DNA of 64,000 bases from Sulfobacillus thermosulfidooxidans DSM 9293 (GCF_900176145.1 NZ_FWWY01000002.1:62001-126000), one strand, 5' to 3'; positions 20,877 to 45,609 are shown, counted from the first letter of the stretch. The notes: generated from the letters alone by a model not told the origin. Program-made: numbers and translations.

Positions 20877-21770
20877 TTAGCTGGCCTCTTTGTAATGTTG
20901 GTCTAGCCATTCGAGTAAAAGATCCATTTGATCGGCATTGAGTTCCCGAATGTTGGTAATGGGCCAGCCGAATTTGGAATGGATCAGCGGATACAGTTTT
21001 TCTTTACTGATGTGATGCGCCTTCATAAACGTCGCGAGCGCATTGAGTTGCTCTTGGGTCGGCGGCGCATCGAGAAGGGTGGCCGGTTTCCCGGCGTCGG
21101 GAGCGGGATCCGGTGCTTCGGCGGGAGGTGCCGCGGACGGAGCCGGAGCGGATGATGTCGCTTTGGACGATGATGCGGGAGCCGCCGTGGTGCGCGAGGA
21201 TTTCGGGGATGCCGCGGATCGGGTCGCGGAGCTGCGGGAGTCGGCTAAGGCATCGAGAGCCGTGTCGGCTTCGGGGTCATCGCCCGTCGCAATCAAGAAC
21301 GTGGTTTTGAGAAAGTACTTGGTGGCGGCGGTAATGGCTTTGGGCAGCCCTTTGTCCAGATTGTCAATGCCTTCGCCTTGGAAGGGGAGCGCAATGCTTT
21401 CGCCGGTTTCGGTGTCACAGAGGGTGAAGATGAGCGTCACAATGGTCTTAAATTGCAGCGGTTTGCCTGCACCTACATTCCAGTGTACTTGGCGCTTGTC
21501 GGCCATATAGCAAAAGAGGGCGAGACCGTTGTCGGCTAAGGGGCCGCGGACGGCCGCGAGAATATCGGCTTCGGTGGCATAGTCATATTTTTGATAATCG
21601 TTGCGGCCGCGTTTGGGGACGCGATGGATTTGACCGAGGGCCTTGGCCAGTTTGGTGAGGAACTTCGGTTCGAGTTTGAGGGGTTGGAATGCGGGCAGCG
21701 CCGCCTCGGGGAGGATGGAGGGCATCTCCGATTCCGGGAAAACGGATGGTGATTGAAATTCGGGCATCAT
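20877..21770 (-). CDS. ERF-family single-strand annealing protein
   Basis: 297 aa from ATG 21770 after AGAAAGGAGCTTGCCC. The ERF domain (about residues 30-170) shows YQKYDYATEADILAAVRGPL, GLALFCYMADKR, TGESIALPFQGEG, DKGLPKAITAATKYFL and TGDDPEADTALDAL. ERF proteins pair complementary ssDNA in phage recombination. A Pro/Ala/Ser-rich linker (about 180-225) joins a C-terminal domain (QEQLNALATFMKAH...LLEWLD), common in this family. The neighbouring exonuclease should produce its ssDNA substrate. Confidence 0.88.
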   Translation of the reverse strand: MMPEFQSPSVFPESEMPSILPEAALPAFQPLKLEPKFLTKLAKALGQIHRVPKRGRNDYQKYDYATEADILAAVRGPLADNGLALFCYMADKRQVHWNVGAGKPLQFKTIVTLIFTLCDTETGESIALPFQGEGIDNLDKGLPKAITAATKYFLKTTFLIATGDDPEADTALDALADSRSSATRSAASPKSSRTTAAPASSSKATSSAPAPSAAPPAEAPDPAPDAGKPATLLDAPPTQEQLNALATFMKAHHISKEKLYPLIHSKFGWPITNIRELNADQMDLLLEWLDQHYKEAS

Positions 21771-21856
21771 GGGCAAGCTCCTTTCTGAGGGTTAAATCGT
21801 GATCATCACACCGGATGGGCCACACGGCCGATGAGGCCGTGTGACACGGTCACCCG

Positions 21857-37520: not shown

Positions 37521-38066
37521 TTAAGGGGAATGTTCTTCCTGCGTTGGAATAGGTGGGCGGTAATTGGCCATCAGGGCGCGAGCACTATCTAAAGGAAGCC
37601 AGAATCGTTGGTTGCTTAATGGGGTGAAACCATAACGCATATAAAATGTTTGAGAATCTTCCAAGGTATCTACCACTAAGGCGACAGTGGCAATAGTCGA
37701 TGCCGTGTCGATGACGCGGCGTAAGGCATCGACAAGTAAAAATTCCCCGAGATGTTGACCGCGATAAGATACGTCGATCGCCAGACGGCCTAATAAGGTG
37801 ACGCCCACATCGGGATAGCGAGCCAGTTTGTGCCGATAGTCGGCCGGAATGTCGGCCAGTTTGATGCTTAAGGACGACAGGGTGTAATAGCCTAAAATTC
37901 TTTGAGGTGTGGCCGAAGGGACGGCGACGAACACGGCCGCCGCCCGGCGCTTGATGTCTTGTGTCGCGCGTTGACGAAGGTAATCGTCTAGTCCTCCCGT
38001 GGGACAATGGAAATGCTTGCGATCATGGTAGCTGGCTAAGGCTTCAACGCGGATTAATGCGTTCAT
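37521..38066 (-). CDS. GNAT-family toxin (TacT/AtaT-like)
   Basis: 181 aa. LDDYLRQRATQDIKRRAAAV, then ILGYYTLSS, then LLGRLAIDVSYRGQHLGEFLL (acetyl-CoA binding loop) and FYMRYGFTPL are typical of TacT-type acetyltransferases, which acetylate charged tRNAs. The start overlaps the antitoxin stop (ATGA). Confidence 0.88.
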   Translation of the reverse strand: MNALIRVEALASYHDRKHFHCPTGGLDDYLRQRATQDIKRRAAAVFVAVPSATPQRILGYYTLSSLSIKLADIPADYRHKLARYPDVGVTLLGRLAIDVSYRGQHLGEFLLVDALRRVIDTASTIATVALVVDTLEDSQTFYMRYGFTPLSNQRFWLPLDSARALMANYRPPIPTQEEHSP

Positions 38067-38362
38067 GACGAAGTTTGATCAACCCGCGACCAATAGCGTG
38101 CAACCGCTTTCTGTAGGGTCTCAGACGGTTGGGGAGGATTTAATAATTGCTCAACAAAGGCTTGACTTTCTTCAGCGTTTAAGGTCATCACCGTTTTTTC
38201 TTGGACGATGGCTTGAGCGCGTGGGGTCACGGTGGCTAACACAAAGGCGGATGTACTGAGTCCGAGAGATTCAGCCGCTTCATCGAGTAACTTTTTCGTT
38301 TCTGCAGAAACGCGAATTTCTAAACGCGACTCGCGTCGCGGGTTCGTTGTTTCGGTAGGCAT
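38063..38362 (-). CDS. DUF1778 antitoxin (TacA-like)
   Basis: 99 aa from ATG 38362 (GGCGAGGACATGTC upstream). RRESRLEIRVSAETKKLLDE then AAESLGLSTSAFVLATV is the DUF1778 ribbon-helix-helix. It neutralises the adjacent GNAT toxin and should autoregulate. Confidence 0.88.
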   Translation of the reverse strand: MPTETTNPRRESRLEIRVSAETKKLLDEAAESLGLSTSAFVLATVTPRAQAIVQEKTVMTLNAEESQAFVEQLLNPPQPSETLQKAVARYWSRVDQTSS

Positions 38363-38531
38363 GACATGTCCTCGCCTTCTTTGAGTCGATATGATCTTAA
38401 ATGTACGGCATTTGTCCATACGTGTCAATCCTCCTCAACATGATCATATGGACTGTGACGAGCAAAGTATTCTACGACGCATGAGATGGAAAGATATCGG
38501 GAGAATCCAAGGGAGAGGATTGAGCATGTTT

Positions 38532-41283: not shown

Positions 41284-41466
41284 TTATCGAATACGGGAAA
41301 TTTTGTGACGAATTTTTTCGGTTACGATGCGCCCTTGCCCATCGATCACGCGGCGTCGCACGGCGACGGCTTGGCCGCGGTTGACGGGACGGTTTTGGGC
41401 ATCGAGATAGGTGATTTCCAGACGATAGAGAGCAGATTCTTGGGAATCGGGGAAACGGGTCTTCAT
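41284..41466 (-). CDS. 60-aa small protein after the E1 gene
   Basis: ATG overlaps the ThiF stop (ATGA) and follows CAGGAGGTCCTCCC. Basic, beta-rich (YRLEITYLDAQNRPV, RRRVIDGQGRIVTEKI). It closes the ubiquitin-like operon; its role there is unknown. Confidence 0.5.
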   Translation of the reverse strand: MKTRFPDSQESALYRLEITYLDAQNRPVNRGQAVAVRRRVIDGQGRIVTEKIRHKISRIR

Positions 41467-42356
41467 GGGAGGACCTCCTGGGTGTTCCATTGGGCCCATA
41501 TCGAGGGGGTCAGGGCTTGGGCCTGACACACTGCGTTTTGGGCATGAAAATTAGCGACATGCCAGCGGATTTGCTGATCGGCTAAGAGCGTGTTGATGGC
41601 ACTGAGCACCGTCATCGCCGCCCAAACATTGGTGAGCATCCGTTGGGGTTGGCTGACGGCTTGGTGTCCACAGGCTTGGCCCGGCAGGGCCGAGGACGCA
41701 TCGGTGAGAATATCGGGATACACGGCGCCAACCGGCGGTAGCACGACATGGCCGAACAGTTTGGCGCCGATGACGACGTGGCCGCTATAGCCGCTGGTGC
41801 GGACGGTTTCCGCGTCGGCGGGATCGTCTGAGAGATAGACCCCATCGTTGCCGGCGTCGATGTATACAATATGAGCAAAGCGGGCGAAAATCTGATGCAG
41901 TAATTGCCGGGTAGCGTGGTTATCCACGCACCCGATGAGGACCGGCAGAGTGTGAAGGCTGGCGTACGGGCTGGGGTTTGGCCACACGGCGTAGCGATCT
42001 TGGCGATCGCTGGTGATGAAGGCATCGAGATCCGACGCTTGGGTCAGATAGGTGGGCATGGCGAACACGGGTAAACCATAGACCGCGCCAAAGCGGTCGG
42101 CCAGAATTTGTGCCTTGGGTTGCCCCACGTCTTGGGGGAGGAAGTGTTGGCGGAGCAGATTGGCCTCTTCCACCCGATCGCCGTCAATGAGCGTCAGCGT
42201 GACGGTCGTGGCATGGGTGGATTGTAATGCGTAGAGTAATCGCGCGAGATATTGAACGACGTAGCCGCCGGTACCTCCGGTGCCAACGACAAACAGTTGG
42301 AAGTGGGGGCGATAGAAAAAGGGGATGGTGAGAGGTTGAAGGGGTTCCAGCATCAT
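41463..42356 (-). CDS. ThiF/E1-like adenylyltransferase (PRTRC type)
   Basis: 297 aa from ATG 42356 (GGAGGTGTCCCCATC upstream), overlapping the 125-aa gene stop by ATGA. The nucleotide-binding loop VVGTGGTGGYVV lies at about residues 23-34; LIDGDRVEEANLLRQHF and GQPKAQILADRFG follow, as in ThiF/MoeB/E1 enzymes that adenylate a ubiquitin-like C-terminus. Cysteines in IGCVDNHATRQLL or GQACGHQ could carry the thioester. The best match is to ThiF proteins of plasmid PRTRC clusters. Neighbours are a Ubl, a JAB protease and an E2-like protein. Confidence 0.82.
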   Translation of the reverse strand: MMLEPLQPLTIPFFYRPHFQLFVVGTGGTGGYVVQYLARLLYALQSTHATTVTLTLIDGDRVEEANLLRQHFLPQDVGQPKAQILADRFGAVYGLPVFAMPTYLTQASDLDAFITSDRQDRYAVWPNPSPYASLHTLPVLIGCVDNHATRQLLHQIFARFAHIVYIDAGNDGVYLSDDPADAETVRTSGYSGHVVIGAKLFGHVVLPPVGAVYPDILTDASSALPGQACGHQAVSQPQRMLTNVWAAMTVLSAINTLLADQQIRWHVANFHAQNAVCQAQALTPSIWAQWNTQEVLP

Positions 42357-42730
42357 GATGGGGACACCTCCCAAGCGGTTGGCGAGCGGCGTTGACACCA
42401 AGCGCAGGAACAGGGCCGAGCTTGGCGGTCCACCCACGTCCAATGTTTTTGCCGGGCGGTGGCTTCTAAGTCGCGCAGGGCCAGAGAGGGAAAGGCGGCA
42501 GCCGTATCCTGCCATTGGCGTAAGCCGTCGGGCGTGAGCCATTGGTGTATCGCGTGCAGAAGCCGGGGATTGCGGGCAGCTCGGTGCATGAGGGCAGCGA
42601 CGACTTCAGCGCCGTCTCCCATTTCAAAGCAGGTATCGAAGGTGCGCGTATGCGTGCGGCCGTGCATCAGACAACGGGCAGCATACGCCACGCGATACCG
42701 AAATTGGGCGGGATCGGTAACGCGCAACAT
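42353..42730 (-). CDS. 125-aa Cys-cluster protein between JAB and E1 genes
   Basis: ATG follows GAAAGGAGTGCAAC. The helical body (LLHAIHQWLTPDGLRQWQDT) ends with CSCAWCQRR, a likely metal site. No family recognised; translation coupling to the E1 gene suggests a shared pathway. Confidence 0.55.
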   Translation of the reverse strand: MLRVTDPAQFRYRVAYAARCLMHGRTHTRTFDTCFEMGDGAEVVAALMHRAARNPRLLHAIHQWLTPDGLRQWQDTAAAFPSLALRDLEATARQKHWTWVDRQARPCSCAWCQRRSPTAWEVSPS

Positions 42731-42749
42731 GTTGCACTCCTTTCGTGGG

Positions 42750-43343
42750 TTACATAAATAAGTTAGAGACGGTCAAGGATACAAACCGTCCTCCACAACT
42801 CATCCGCCACACCATATCGGGGCGGGGCTGATCGCAGCGGCCGATGACGCCATAACAGCCCGTGGCTTGTTCATCGGCATCATCGGTGGCGGAGAAAAAG
42901 GCCGGAAGCGTGCCGTGGGAGTGGATTTGAACGACGCGCGGAAATAACGGGTCATAGGGATCCCGCAGGGCGTCGGTGGTGACTGAGGTGGCTGTCGCCT
43001 GCTGATGGGGAATCAGAATGCGGAAGCACTGGCGGCGCACGTCCCATCGCACTTCCAGGAGCAGTTCGTGCGGCAGAGCGCGGCGGCATTCCGTCACGAT
43101 CGTTGGTAAGAAATCATAAGGAATCCGGGGAATGGTGAAAGTCACGCCTTCGGTCCCGGCGGTCAGCGGAACCGATGCCGAGATCGCCGGGCGCGGGATA
43201 TCGGGTCGAGCGACACGAAAGAGTCCAATGGGGGTTGTGCGATATTCGACAACGCCGGTGGGTGTGATGAGGAACCGCACGGGTTCGTTTCCGGCGGCAC
43301 ATGCCGCGGGATCCGTATACCAGCCGATCCAGGCCGGGGTCAT
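42750..43343 (-). CDS. JAB/Mov34 metalloprotease (PRTRC protein A-like)
   Basis: 197 aa. The JAMM zinc motif is complete: H141-S-H143, then seven residues, S151, two residues, D154 (from HSHGTLPAFFSATDD), with E97/E98 upstream as the likely catalytic acid. GCYGVIGRCDQPRPDMVWRM continues the MPN fold. Bacterial JAB proteins remove or mature ubiquitin-like tails. The start overlaps the Ubl stop (ATGA). Confidence 0.82.
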   Translation of the reverse strand: MTPAWIGWYTDPAACAAGNEPVRFLITPTGVVEYRTTPIGLFRVARPDIPRPAISASVPLTAGTEGVTFTIPRIPYDFLPTIVTECRRALPHELLLEVRWDVRRQCFRILIPHQQATATSVTTDALRDPYDPLFPRVVQIHSHGTLPAFFSATDDADEQATGCYGVIGRCDQPRPDMVWRMSCGGRFVSLTVSNLFM

Positions 43344-43618
43344 CGACCTCCCGCACCTTTCCGCGATCCTTTGACGATGGGCACAATGAGACCGGTTTTC
43401 GCATTATACGTCATTTCACATCGGTCTTTTGAGAGTTCCGGATAGAGCCGTTCCATCATTTGCCGGATTTGTTCGAGGGTCAACGTTCGGTCGGTAATGA
43501 TATGCTGGTGGCCAGCATAGGCCACCACCCGATCTTTATCAACAGGTGCCGTTTCGGGGGAGGCAGAGGAATCTTTGGGAGAGGGGTCGTCCGGGAGAAA
43601 GGATATTTGTTCGGCCAT
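43340..43618 (-). CDS. Ubiquitin-like protein (PRTRC protein C-like), GG-R tail
   Basis: 92 aa. After a disordered N-terminus (PDDPSPKDSSASPETAP) the compact domain reads LTLEQIRQMMERLYPELSKD then CEMTYNAKTGLIVPIVKG. This resembles PRTRC-C Ubl proteins (spe-v---YpeLt-a-v). The very C-terminus is GAGGR, a diglycine followed by one Arg. ATG follows AAAGGAGTGTCGTAACTT. It lies between the E2-like and JAB genes. Confidence 0.7.
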   Translation of the reverse strand: MAEQISFLPDDPSPKDSSASPETAPVDKDRVVAYAGHQHIITDRTLTLEQIRQMMERLYPELSKDRCEMTYNAKTGLIVPIVKGSRKGAGGR

Positions 43619-43634
43619 AAGTTACGACACTCCT

Positions 43635-44288
43635 TTACGTCAGTAGTGAGGTGATCCACGTCGACCACGGGAAGCCGAGGGGTTGGAGCCATTCGGGGGG
43701 AAAGACGGATCGGGTGCTCAGCGCGGCCACGAGGCCGCGGTAATCGAGGCCGCTGCGGTTGGTCTGATGGGTCAGATCCCAATTGTTGGGAGTGCTAAAG
43801 AAGATGCGGACCAGGCTGGGCCAATCAGCGGGGGTATACGGACGGTGAGGCACGGTCCAGCAACAGGTGGTATTCTCATAAACATTGCTCAACGGATACC
43901 GGTACAACGGGGTGTCCGGCTGGAGCGGGGCGTTGTCCGCGACGGCCACGATGGCGGCTTGGATGATGTGGGTGTCGCGCTGTTTGAGGAAAAACAGGAG
44001 GCGCGGCAAGGGAATCACGGTGGATTCGCGGGAGCCTTCGAGGACCCAAGGATAGGCGGCAGCCGGCAGATCGCCAACCCAGCACTGTTCGGATCCCCGC
44101 CCGGCCCAAAACACGGTTTGCGGGGGCAAGAGCGGGCTGGTGGTCCACGGGCGAGACGACGCGCTGTCGTCGTGCAGGCGTTCCACGAGGGTCTCGAGCG
44201 GCAGTTGATAGCGGCGTTCGCGCACACCATCCGTGACATGGACGTGCGGCATTTGCCCGTCTTCCAACGTAATCGTGACACGGGTCAT
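43635..44288 (-). CDS. E2-like protein (PRTRC protein B / prokaryotic E2 family D-like)
   Basis: 217 aa from ATG 44288 (GGAGGAGGTGACCTGGAC), overlapping the upstream stop by ATGA. LPPQTVFWAGRGS, IPLPRLLFFLKQRD, YRYPLSNVYENTTCCW and WPSLVRIFFSTPNNW follow the order of PRTRC-B proteins (P-LLF...aPL-NVy--g-vC-G...FF-S-FTH). Cys in TTCCW could be the conjugating residue. Assignment is by pattern and context. Confidence 0.65.
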   Translation of the reverse strand: MTRVTITLEDGQMPHVHVTDGVRERRYQLPLETLVERLHDDSASSRPWTTSPLLPPQTVFWAGRGSEQCWVGDLPAAAYPWVLEGSRESTVIPLPRLLFFLKQRDTHIIQAAIVAVADNAPLQPDTPLYRYPLSNVYENTTCCWTVPHRPYTPADWPSLVRIFFSTPNNWDLTHQTNRSGLDYRGLVAALSTRSVFPPEWLQPLGFPWSTWITSLLT

Positions 44289-44833
44289 GTCCAGGTCACC
44301 TCCTCCAGGGGCCGGATTAAATCGGTGAGGACCGCGAGCCAATGGACCCAGCGCACCAGCATGGGCTCATACTCGTCCCAATTGTCATAATCCAGGTCCC
44401 ATTGCCACGTCCAGCGGCGGCCTTGCGCGGTGACGGTCGCTTGCATGGCATAATCCTGACTTTTGGCGAGAAAATCTTGGACGGTGGCCCAGACCTGAGC
44501 ATAGGTTTGGGCTGCGGTGCGGCGAATGGACGGGGGCAACGCGGGATCGCGCAGGCGAGTGAGCCAGGTGGTCCACGCGGGATCGGTCCACGTGAGACGA
44601 AGGATCGATGTCTCGTCGGTATCATCGGTGGTCAGGATCTGTGCGGTGGGAATCCAACAGGTGAGCAAGCGACGAGCGTGGTCGGAGCGCGATACGGGGC
44701 CTTGTCGCCATGTCAGGGCTAACGGGGGGACGGGGCGGCCTTGATCAGCCGTCCACTTATATGCCATAAGCGTTTCCCACCAAGTGCTCCACTCGAGAAT
44801 ATCGTCTTCACTGAGGTACGCGGAATACGTCAT
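44285..44833 (-). CDS. 182-aa protein heading the ubiquitin-like run
   Basis: Starts MTYSAYLSEDDILEWSTWWE. Strongly Trp/Asp-rich (RRWTWQWDLDYDNWDEYE). No family recognised. ATG follows GGAGGTGACACCCT; its stop overlaps the E2-like start. Confidence 0.55.
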   Translation of the reverse strand: MTYSAYLSEDDILEWSTWWETLMAYKWTADQGRPVPPLALTWRQGPVSRSDHARRLLTCWIPTAQILTTDDTDETSILRLTWTDPAWTTWLTRLRDPALPPSIRRTAAQTYAQVWATVQDFLAKSQDYAMQATVTAQGRRWTWQWDLDYDNWDEYEPMLVRWVHWLAVLTDLIRPLEEVTWT

Positions 44834-44854: not shown

Positions 44855-45184
44855 TTAGTAAAAGGGAATGGTTGGCGGACAGAATCCGGGTTCCATCGCG
44901 AGCGTGTCAATGAGGGTCGAGACCTGGAGCAGGGGATGCCATAAATTGTCGCGATTGACATCGCCGTCGTCCTCATCGTCATAGTCGTCGATATGCTCAA
45001 TGGGGGTGTAGAACAGCAGATCAATATAGGCGGCTTGCACGTCCGAAAAGGTAAAGGTGTGCCAATCCGTGATCGTGTCTTCTTGGAGAAAGCGAGCAAT
45101 CAGGGTGACGGCGGGCGATAGCGGGGGCGGATCGGCATCCCAGAAGGCGGCGAGGTTGGTCACGGGGGCAAGACGGGGCGGCAT
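44855..45184 (-). CDS. DUF6922-like protein, third copy
   Basis: 109 aa from ATG 45184, overlapping the SLOG gene stop (TGATG). LAAFWDADPPPLSPAVTLIA then RFLQEDTITDWHTF resembles the FWDVD...RVL...W pattern of 31931-32548. An acidic run (DDYDDEDDGD) follows. Confidence 0.45.
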   Translation of the reverse strand: MPPRLAPVTNLAAFWDADPPPLSPAVTLIARFLQEDTITDWHTFTFSDVQAAYIDLLFYTPIEHIDDYDDEDDGDVNRDNLWHPLLQVSTLIDTLAMEPGFCPPTIPFY

Positions 45185-45543
45185 CAGACAGATCCCTCCG
45201 GCATCAGACATTTGACGGGAATGTGGGCTGCCCGGGCTTGCCGAATCATGTCATCCGTGCCGGGACTGGCGCCGGGCAGGCGGAAGGCATAGACGGCATC
45301 GACGCCGGTGGCCAGCATCTGGGCATTGCGGCGCGGACCGGCGGCGCGGCCGTAGGTGGCCCAATCGGCGGGATAGACTTCGGTGGGCAACCCGCGTTGT
45401 TGAGCCAGACGGTGGGCGATGGCATCGGCGCCGCGGGCCCCGCCGGTAATGACGGTGGTGTCCGGGGGCAAGGCGTCGATCCAGCGGGCGATAGTAGCGG
45501 CATCGGTCCAATGGCGGCTGCCGCAGAAGATGACACGGCGCAT
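45184..45543 (-). CDS. SLOG-family DUF2493 protein (YspA/YpsA-related)
   Basis: 119 aa. VIFCGSRHWTDAATIARWID, then VITGGARGADAIAHRLAQQR and YGRAAGPRRNAQML match the Rossmannoid SLOG superfamily that binds nucleotide-derived ligands. ATG 45543 has GGAGGTGTGCCC upstream. It could sense or process a nucleotide signal. Confidence 0.85.
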   Translation of the reverse strand: MRRVIFCGSRHWTDAATIARWIDALPPDTTVITGGARGADAIAHRLAQQRGLPTEVYPADWATYGRAAGPRRNAQMLATGVDAVYAFRLPGASPGTDDMIRQARAAHIPVKCLMPEGSV

Positions 45544-45609
45544 GGGCACACCTCCCGATTAGTGTCACGTTCCCATGAGCCGGCCCGCGGCGGCGGGTCG
45601 GCTACGACA

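Follow-up and report, generated by a model that had tools for sequence, protein, structure and literature searches.

The stretch of DNA analyzed here, 64,000 nucleotides of Sulfobacillus thermosulfidooxidans DSM 9293 (NZ_FWWY01000002.1:62001-126000; hereafter the window, with all coordinates counted from its first letter), carries a real and intact operon encoding a ubiquitin-like protein (Ubl), an E2-like conjugating enzyme, a JAB metalloprotease, a ThiF-family E1-like activating enzyme and two conserved partners, X and Y. Because the catalytic residues are intact in all of the enzymes and the set recurs across lineages, the operon is very probably a conjugation machine. Our best explanation overall, held with moderate confidence, is a reversible Ubl-conjugation system on a probable plasmid. 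What is new is a corrected gene set and three regularities, namely a Lys-Gly (KG) rule at the C-terminus of the Ubl, a conserved tail on X and clamp-like tails on the Ubls. These make the role of the class directly testable, with a predicted JAB cleavage site, two partners to follow, passengers to ignore and a candidate clamp address.

Operon organization

An earlier note on this DNA had described a compact operon of seven open reading frames (ORFs). All seven were recovered from the minus strand at 41284-44833, and their order agrees with the note; as described, four junctions are ATGA overlaps (p182/E2, Ubl/JAB, cys125/ThiF and ThiF/p60). Each gene has a coding-like codon bias in its called frame (0.32-0.58 bits per codon, against no more than 0.03 in the other frames). 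The extent of the operon had to be revised, as it starts one gene earlier, at X (up118), which is kept in both nearest relatives (loci L030 and L031). In these, ThiF is 63-66% identical and X, Y (p182), E2, Ubl, JAB and ThiF are all present. Judged by such comparisons, the conserved unit is X-Y-E2-Ubl-JAB-ThiF, that is, five of the seven genes plus X. Chance assembly of the unit can be excluded because the set of E2, Ubl, JAB and ThiF recurs in dozens of loci.

Table 1. Features of the operon in the window
Feature	Position	Strand	Description
X (up118)	44855-45211	-	First gene of conserved unit; C-terminus ...PPTIPFY
Y (p182)	44285-44833	-	Conserved partner; 182 residues
E2-like conjugating enzyme (Prok-E2_D)	43635-44288	-	217 residues; catalytic C143, N135
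Ubl	43340-43618	-	92 residues; by homology, a modifier of beta-grasp type; core followed by -SRKG and the tail AGGR
JAB/JAMM metalloprotease with N-terminal domain, PRTRC_A-like	42750-43343	-	197 residues
cys125	42353-42730	-	125 residues; inserted passenger gene, outside conserved unit
ThiF-family E1-like activating enzyme	41463-42356	-	297 residues; conserved C229
p60	41284-41466	-	60 residues; small protein 3' of ThiF
Ubl residues 4-8, QISFL	43595-43609	-	Putative non-canonical beta-clamp-binding motif
Ubl tail AGGR after RKG	43343-43354	-	Predicted to be removed by JAB; tail/fusion pattern tracks JAB presence

Catalytic components

None of the genes for E1, E2, Ubl and JAB is disrupted, and the expected catalytic residues are encoded, which bears out the proposal of a Ubl-conjugation operon. 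In ThiF, the GxGGxG loop, D58xD60, K81, D145 and C229 are all in place, so that the E1 loop is intact as had been claimed, and the adenylation residues are invariant. The protein scores 52.9 bits against PF00899, above the cut-off, and its profile matches ThiF, UBA6 and MccB among solved structures. In the E2, N135 and C143 are each invariant in 51/51 sequences; the eight-residue Asn-to-Cys spacing between them is shared by eukaryotic E2s. The E2 passes the gathering cut-off of PF14460 (Prok-E2_D; 33 bits, cut-off 25), and its profile has no match among solved structures. The JAMM motif of the JAB is complete, again as described (E93, H141, S142, H143, S151 and D154), and the last five of these residues are invariant in 58 homologues. 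The JAB likewise passes PF14464 (Prok-JAB; 32.6 bits, cut-off 25), and its profile finds weak matches to BilC (E 0.085) and BubCD (E 0.029) among solved structures.

An E1 of the ThiF/MoeB fold would also suit a sulfur carrier, in which ThiF and the Ubl yield a thiocarboxylate that serves cofactor or tRNA chemistry instead of protein conjugates, and a phosphoadenosine phosphosulfate reductase family gene is found near the unit in some relatives. However, the unit has a JAB and a dedicated E2 with an invariant catalytic Cys, and no rhodanese or metabolic gene was recognized in it. We consider a sulfur carrier very improbable.

For a conjugation system, the following cycle can be proposed. JAB would trim the Ubl precursor after RKG, and ThiF would adenylate the exposed Gly and then hold the Ubl as a thioester, probably on C229. 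The E2, by virtue of its N135/C143 motif, would carry the Ubl on C143 to target proteins, where lysines would receive it and from which JAB could later take it off again. X and Y would be conserved co-factors; as an E3 gene could not be recognized, they most likely serve to select substrates.

Relationship to described systems

The operon had been assigned to the PRTRC type. We judged membership by the curated cut-offs of the NCBIfam PRTRC models (TIGR03735-TIGR03738 and TIGR03742). Significant scores that did not reach the cut-offs were obtained for JAB against PRTRC_A (72.5 bits, E 3e-20; cut-off 101.8), for E2 against PRTRC_B (27.7 bits, E 1.6e-6; cut-off 131.45) and for ThiF against PRTRC_ThiF (90.7 bits, E 9e-26; cut-off 144.75), and a search of the whole genome with the PRTRC_C and PRTRC_F models gave no match at E<=10. 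The Ubl matched no hidden Markov model (HMM) family in Pfam or NCBIfam scans, and an iterative HMM search tied it to 58 Ubls. Alignment with hhalign to PRTRC sequences of Sulfuricystis and Burkholderia plasmids gave probabilities of 98.7 for B, 98.6 for A and 89 for C (E 2e-6). The PRTRC label therefore holds in a broad sense, through the homology of A, B and ThiF, and does not hold under the NCBIfam cut-offs, with C and F unmatched. The earlier note had taken the lack of PRTRC profile hits for the Ubl and E2, or a defective ATP-binding site in E1, as grounds for giving up the assignment; of these, the E2 has a PRTRC match, the Ubl has none and the ATP-binding residues of E1 are intact.

In addition to the homologous A, B and ThiF, the operon shares with PRTRC clusters the order B-A-ThiF and a Ubl that is related to C and has the common -KG end. 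Unlike PRTRC clusters, it falls below every cut-off tested, gave no match for F, has an X and a Y without detectable kinship to E or F, and lies far from ParB in contig coordinates. X and Y were considered as PRTRC_E or PRTRC_F and rejected, since p182 could not be aligned to F, nor the X profile to two E sequences.

Iyer, Burroughs and Aravind (PMC1779556) described in 2006 an operon type, 6d, that consists of a Ubl, an E2, a JAB with an N-terminal domain, an E1 and a rapidly diverging alpha-helical protein. The type 6d E2 lacks the His of the HPN motif, keeps the Cys and has an absolutely conserved downstream His. The window operon is similar in that Ubl, E2, JAB and E1 lie within one operon, the JAB is N-terminally extended, the E1 is unfused and the Ubl has a conserved C-terminal Gly; K87-G88 aligns with the bare KG end of the Ubls from JAB-less loci, and AGGR follows. 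It differs in its E2, in which Cys and Asn are invariant and the HPN His is lacking but the downstream His is unconserved. For the rapidly diverging extra protein the agreement is partial: Y has the right position and is diverging, and its predicted structure is alpha/beta and not largely helical. The text consulted on type 6d contains no X with a conserved C-terminus, no Ubl-JAB fusion, no KG rule and no clamp-like tails. From these comparisons, the operon is a member of the broad Prok-E2_D/Ubl/JAB/ThiF class and a variant of type 6d; it is not a strict member because a conserved His after the E2 cysteine was not found in the 51 sequences. In the literature searched, we found no functional study of this class, which was described in 2006, and mentions of PRTRC were mostly in transcriptomic or genomic reports.

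Probable maturation of the Ubl by JAB

The state of the Ubl C-terminus follows the presence of JAB. Where JAB is missing, the Ubl ends at the final Gly in 13/13 loci of the discovery set (12 with KG, one with KNG). The same KG end is found in 24/24 Ubls from JAB-less loci of IMG/VR that were fetched afterwards, a held-out set in which some are near-duplicates of one another or of discovery sequences. Among 26 loci that have JAB and an identifiable KG, 24 have a Ubl with a tail or a Ubl-JAB fusion; the tails after KG include AGGR in the window, GR in L030, ATAR in L031 and SEKYE in L040. The association between JAB presence and Ubl end has a Fisher p of 1e-8, uncorrected for shared ancestry. 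When the JAB-less genomes or records were searched whole, 8/10 had no JAB, and the other two plasmids have one elsewhere. Since tails or fusions occur with JAB and a bare KG without it, JAB probably matures the Ubl by cutting after KG. Two loci (L125 and L127) speak against this, as they have JAB and yet their Ubl ends bare at KG.

The JAB-less loci also bear on a role in plasmid addiction, in which a host protein would be tagged and untagged in a balance like that of a toxin and antitoxin. Iyer et al. (2006; PMC1779556) speculated on such a role; it would suit the probable plasmid location and the opposition between the E1/E2 and JAB activities. However, several lineages have E1, E2 and Ubl and no JAB at all, which makes the opposing activity dispensable, and we regard addiction as improbable.

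Partners and passengers

X has homologues at the same place in L030 (39% identity, E 6e-21) and L031 (42%, E 2e-23). Met10 is the first residue that is invariant among the three sequences and may be the true start. Elsewhere, the counterparts by position are proteins of ~70-190 residues encoded upstream of Y-E2. These sequences can otherwise be aligned poorly, and 40/41 have F or Y in penultimate position, with a hydrophobic residue next; part of this set was picked with a filter permitting F, Y, V, I or L at the penultimate position, and the unfiltered list agrees. The tail rule holds in 13/16 held-out loci, some of which repeat discovery sequences. The tail was considered as a clamp motif and rejected, as it has no conserved Gln, and an AlphaFold2 model of X was discarded (predicted local distance difference test score, pLDDT, 43).

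The homologues of Y in L030 and L031 are 36-38% identical (E 1e-29 and 3e-26), and loci of the adjacent type carry a gene at the Y position. The AlphaFold2 model of Y (pLDDT 73.5; predicted template modelling score 0.74) has the alpha/beta topology H-H-EE-H-H-EE-H. A Foldseek search with it gave no match at E<=0.001, and its VIA-align comparisons (Z <=5.1 among unrelated folds) were uninterpretable. By profile comparison, homology of X or Y was detected within groups and not across all groups.

The earlier note had placed p182, cys125 and the 60-residue protein outside the described set. For cys125 this stands, as it is an unrelated insertion; p182, on the other hand, is conserved and sits at the place of the extra protein of type 6d. 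By comparison of loci, cys125 is a passenger unrelated to the unit: L030 and L031 have no space for it between JAB and ThiF, and its homologues are found on alphaproteobacterial plasmids, namely of Aminobacter (35%, E 8e-14), Mesorhizobium and Shinella. In Aminobacter and Shinella these adjoin large helicase genes and have no Ubl genes near. A role as a zinc-finger adaptor was rejected, since the C-terminal Cys cluster is unconserved in homologues and the gene is missing from relatives. The cys125 family, which includes members at L156 and L158, consists of uncharacterized plasmid proteins with a conserved core around FDTCFE..D..EV. For p60, the codon use is coding-like, no homologue was found at other loci of the unit, with which it is thus not conserved, and there were only weak matches, in three other class genomes.

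A possible link to the replication sliding clamp

Proteins that bind the beta clamp carry the consensus QL[S/D]LF or QxxLF (PMC12309361; PMC4549789). Similar motifs are present in the N-terminal tails of many Bacillota Ubls, such as those from Metabacillus (QLSLF), Cytobacillus (QLDLF), Thermobacillus (QMDLF), Bacillus (QLALF), Alicyclobacillus (QSSLF) and Priestia (QTNLF). The window Ubl has QISFL, and its relatives have QMSFF and QMSFL. With the Oscillospiraceae and Erysipelotrichaceae groups set aside, a strict pattern (Q[LIMVFSTAE][SDATGN][LIMF][FL] within the first 40 residues) was found in 19/33 Ubls, against 0.30 in shuffles. The 374 ORFs of the same loci include 21 with a matching N-terminus, and 17 of these are Ubls. 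Replication genes are found beside the operon as well. In 28 records, which are those nearest to one query DnaN and not a random sample, dnaN has the same orientation as ThiF in 26, and in nine it precedes the ThiF match by 2.7-3.0 kb. It stands immediately ahead of X in the inspected Priestia (L133) and Virgibacillus (L132) loci and immediately ahead of PRTRC_E in Sulfuricystis, and dnaX overlaps or follows ThiF on Lysinibacillus and Sporosarcina plasmids (L124, L126 and L128). A delta-prime gene follows dnaX in L124 and L128. The PRTRC_E ends QAQLF, QAGLFE and TAELF were considered as clamp motifs and rejected, as the Burkholderia (ASLLD) and Shewanella (DEESL) counterparts have none.

The clamp-like Ubl tails, together with dnaN or dnaX beside the operon in the wider family, suggest that the tag might act at the sliding clamp and bring tagged proteins to plasmid replication forks. 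The Ubl would then be a portable clamp label: a putative clamp peptide in its N-terminal tail, which is probably disordered, would recruit the tagged protein to the replication clamp, in many cases one encoded by a plasmid, and JAB would remove the label. This is a specific hypothesis and not a result. For the Bacillota branch in general, a function in clamp docking has a somewhat less than even chance, the label model itself is doubtful, and docking by the window operon is more doubtful still.

Several points weigh against a clamp role. The window motif QISFL does not fit QxxLF in its fourth and fifth residues, there is no dnaN on the contig, and no plasmid dnaN was found in the genome. The strict motif occurs in 0/30 Oscillospiraceae and 0/7 Erysipelotrichaceae Ubls, and in 2/23 held-out Ubls (0.11 expected), one of which is near-identical to a known Ubl; a looser pattern ([LIMV]F[DGSAE]) occurs in 7/23 of the held-out Ubls, against 1.2 expected. 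Moreover, the pattern was set after the sequences had been inspected, and related plasmids are not independent; the choice of the 28 dnaN records counts here too.

If the clamp link were true, bacteria would have ubiquitin-like signalling at the replication fork, and the label would mirror, in reverse, the ubiquitin and SUMO signalling of eukaryotic PCNA. X, with its aromatic-hydrophobic end, would then be a further widespread and so far unrecognized component.

Distribution and a possible role in defence

The set of E2, Ubl, JAB and ThiF recurs across Bacillota, Rubrobacter, Thermosipho, Nitrospira, Myxococcales and one archaeal bin, often with the Ubl fused ahead of JAB. Its distribution is sporadic, with 3/398 phylum genomes and 3/154 class genomes positive. 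Such a pattern is one argument for anti-phage defence. Bil (BilABCD) uses Ubl, E2, JAB and E1 to tag phage proteins, and the operon might likewise tag structural or other proteins of phages. The logic of these four enzyme types is common to the operon, Bil and Bub. By sequence, JAB is the one component with a match, a weak one to BilC and BubCD chains, and no relative of the E2 was found among solved structures. Against defence, replication genes neighbour the operon in several relatives, and related E1/E2/JAB sets sit on large viral contigs themselves. No defence model was matched beyond weak matches of ThiF-fold E1-E2 models, a result of little weight, as PADLOC 2023 may lack Bil models. Taken together, we think defence unlikely and retain reversible conjugation on a probable plasmid as the preferred explanation.

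The viral sets, with E2, JAB and ThiF, were found on IMG/VR contigs of 70-340 kb (L164, L166, L168, L191 and L213) and in Bacillus phage KLEB27-3 (L220). The Ubl there is divergent or undetected, and the X tails likewise end in F-I. A first scan of viral contigs with a single-protein query had given no match.

Within the genus, the unit is present in Sulfobacillus sp. (L034), a close relative whose contig appears to be that of L031. Another locus (L032, on the G003 chromosome at 306000-325000) holds broken ThiF fragments of the family in a genome where no E2 was found, and is a decayed copy. In Oscillospiraceae loci (L043, L049, L074 and others), a Ubl-JAB fusion carries a degenerate KG motif and X-Y-E2 lies ~3-6 kb downstream of ThiF, so that the parts are arranged differently. 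Erysipelotrichaceae-type loci (L084, L087, L091, L095 and others) have a protein of ~255-306 residues at the place of Y, with a short hydrophobic end such as EVIL or QVLL; this protein may combine X and Y.

Replicon and neighbouring genes

The genome consists of two contigs, and the window sits on the smaller one, C2, of 248,656 bases; the other is 3.6 Mb. C2 encodes ParB, ~140 kb from the cassette in contig coordinates. Because of its size and ParB, C2 is probably a plasmid, so that the plasmid-borne location for which PRTRC clusters are known is likely here too. ParB is beside the cassette in G001 and ~6 kb off in G027; adjacency to ParB as a general rule was rejected, as it fails on C2.

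Directly upstream of X is a gene for a YspA-type SLOG protein (45187-45549). Elsewhere in the window, a GNAT acetyltransferase gene with a small gene upstream (37524-38428) resembles a toxin-antitoxin pair, the antitoxin being called by eye. An ERF single-strand annealing recombinase with QMDLL near its C-terminus is encoded in the same co-oriented block (20880-21776), and an AAA ATPase at 1485-2741 (PF13304/PF13175; OLD-like by eye) is a possible defence gene.

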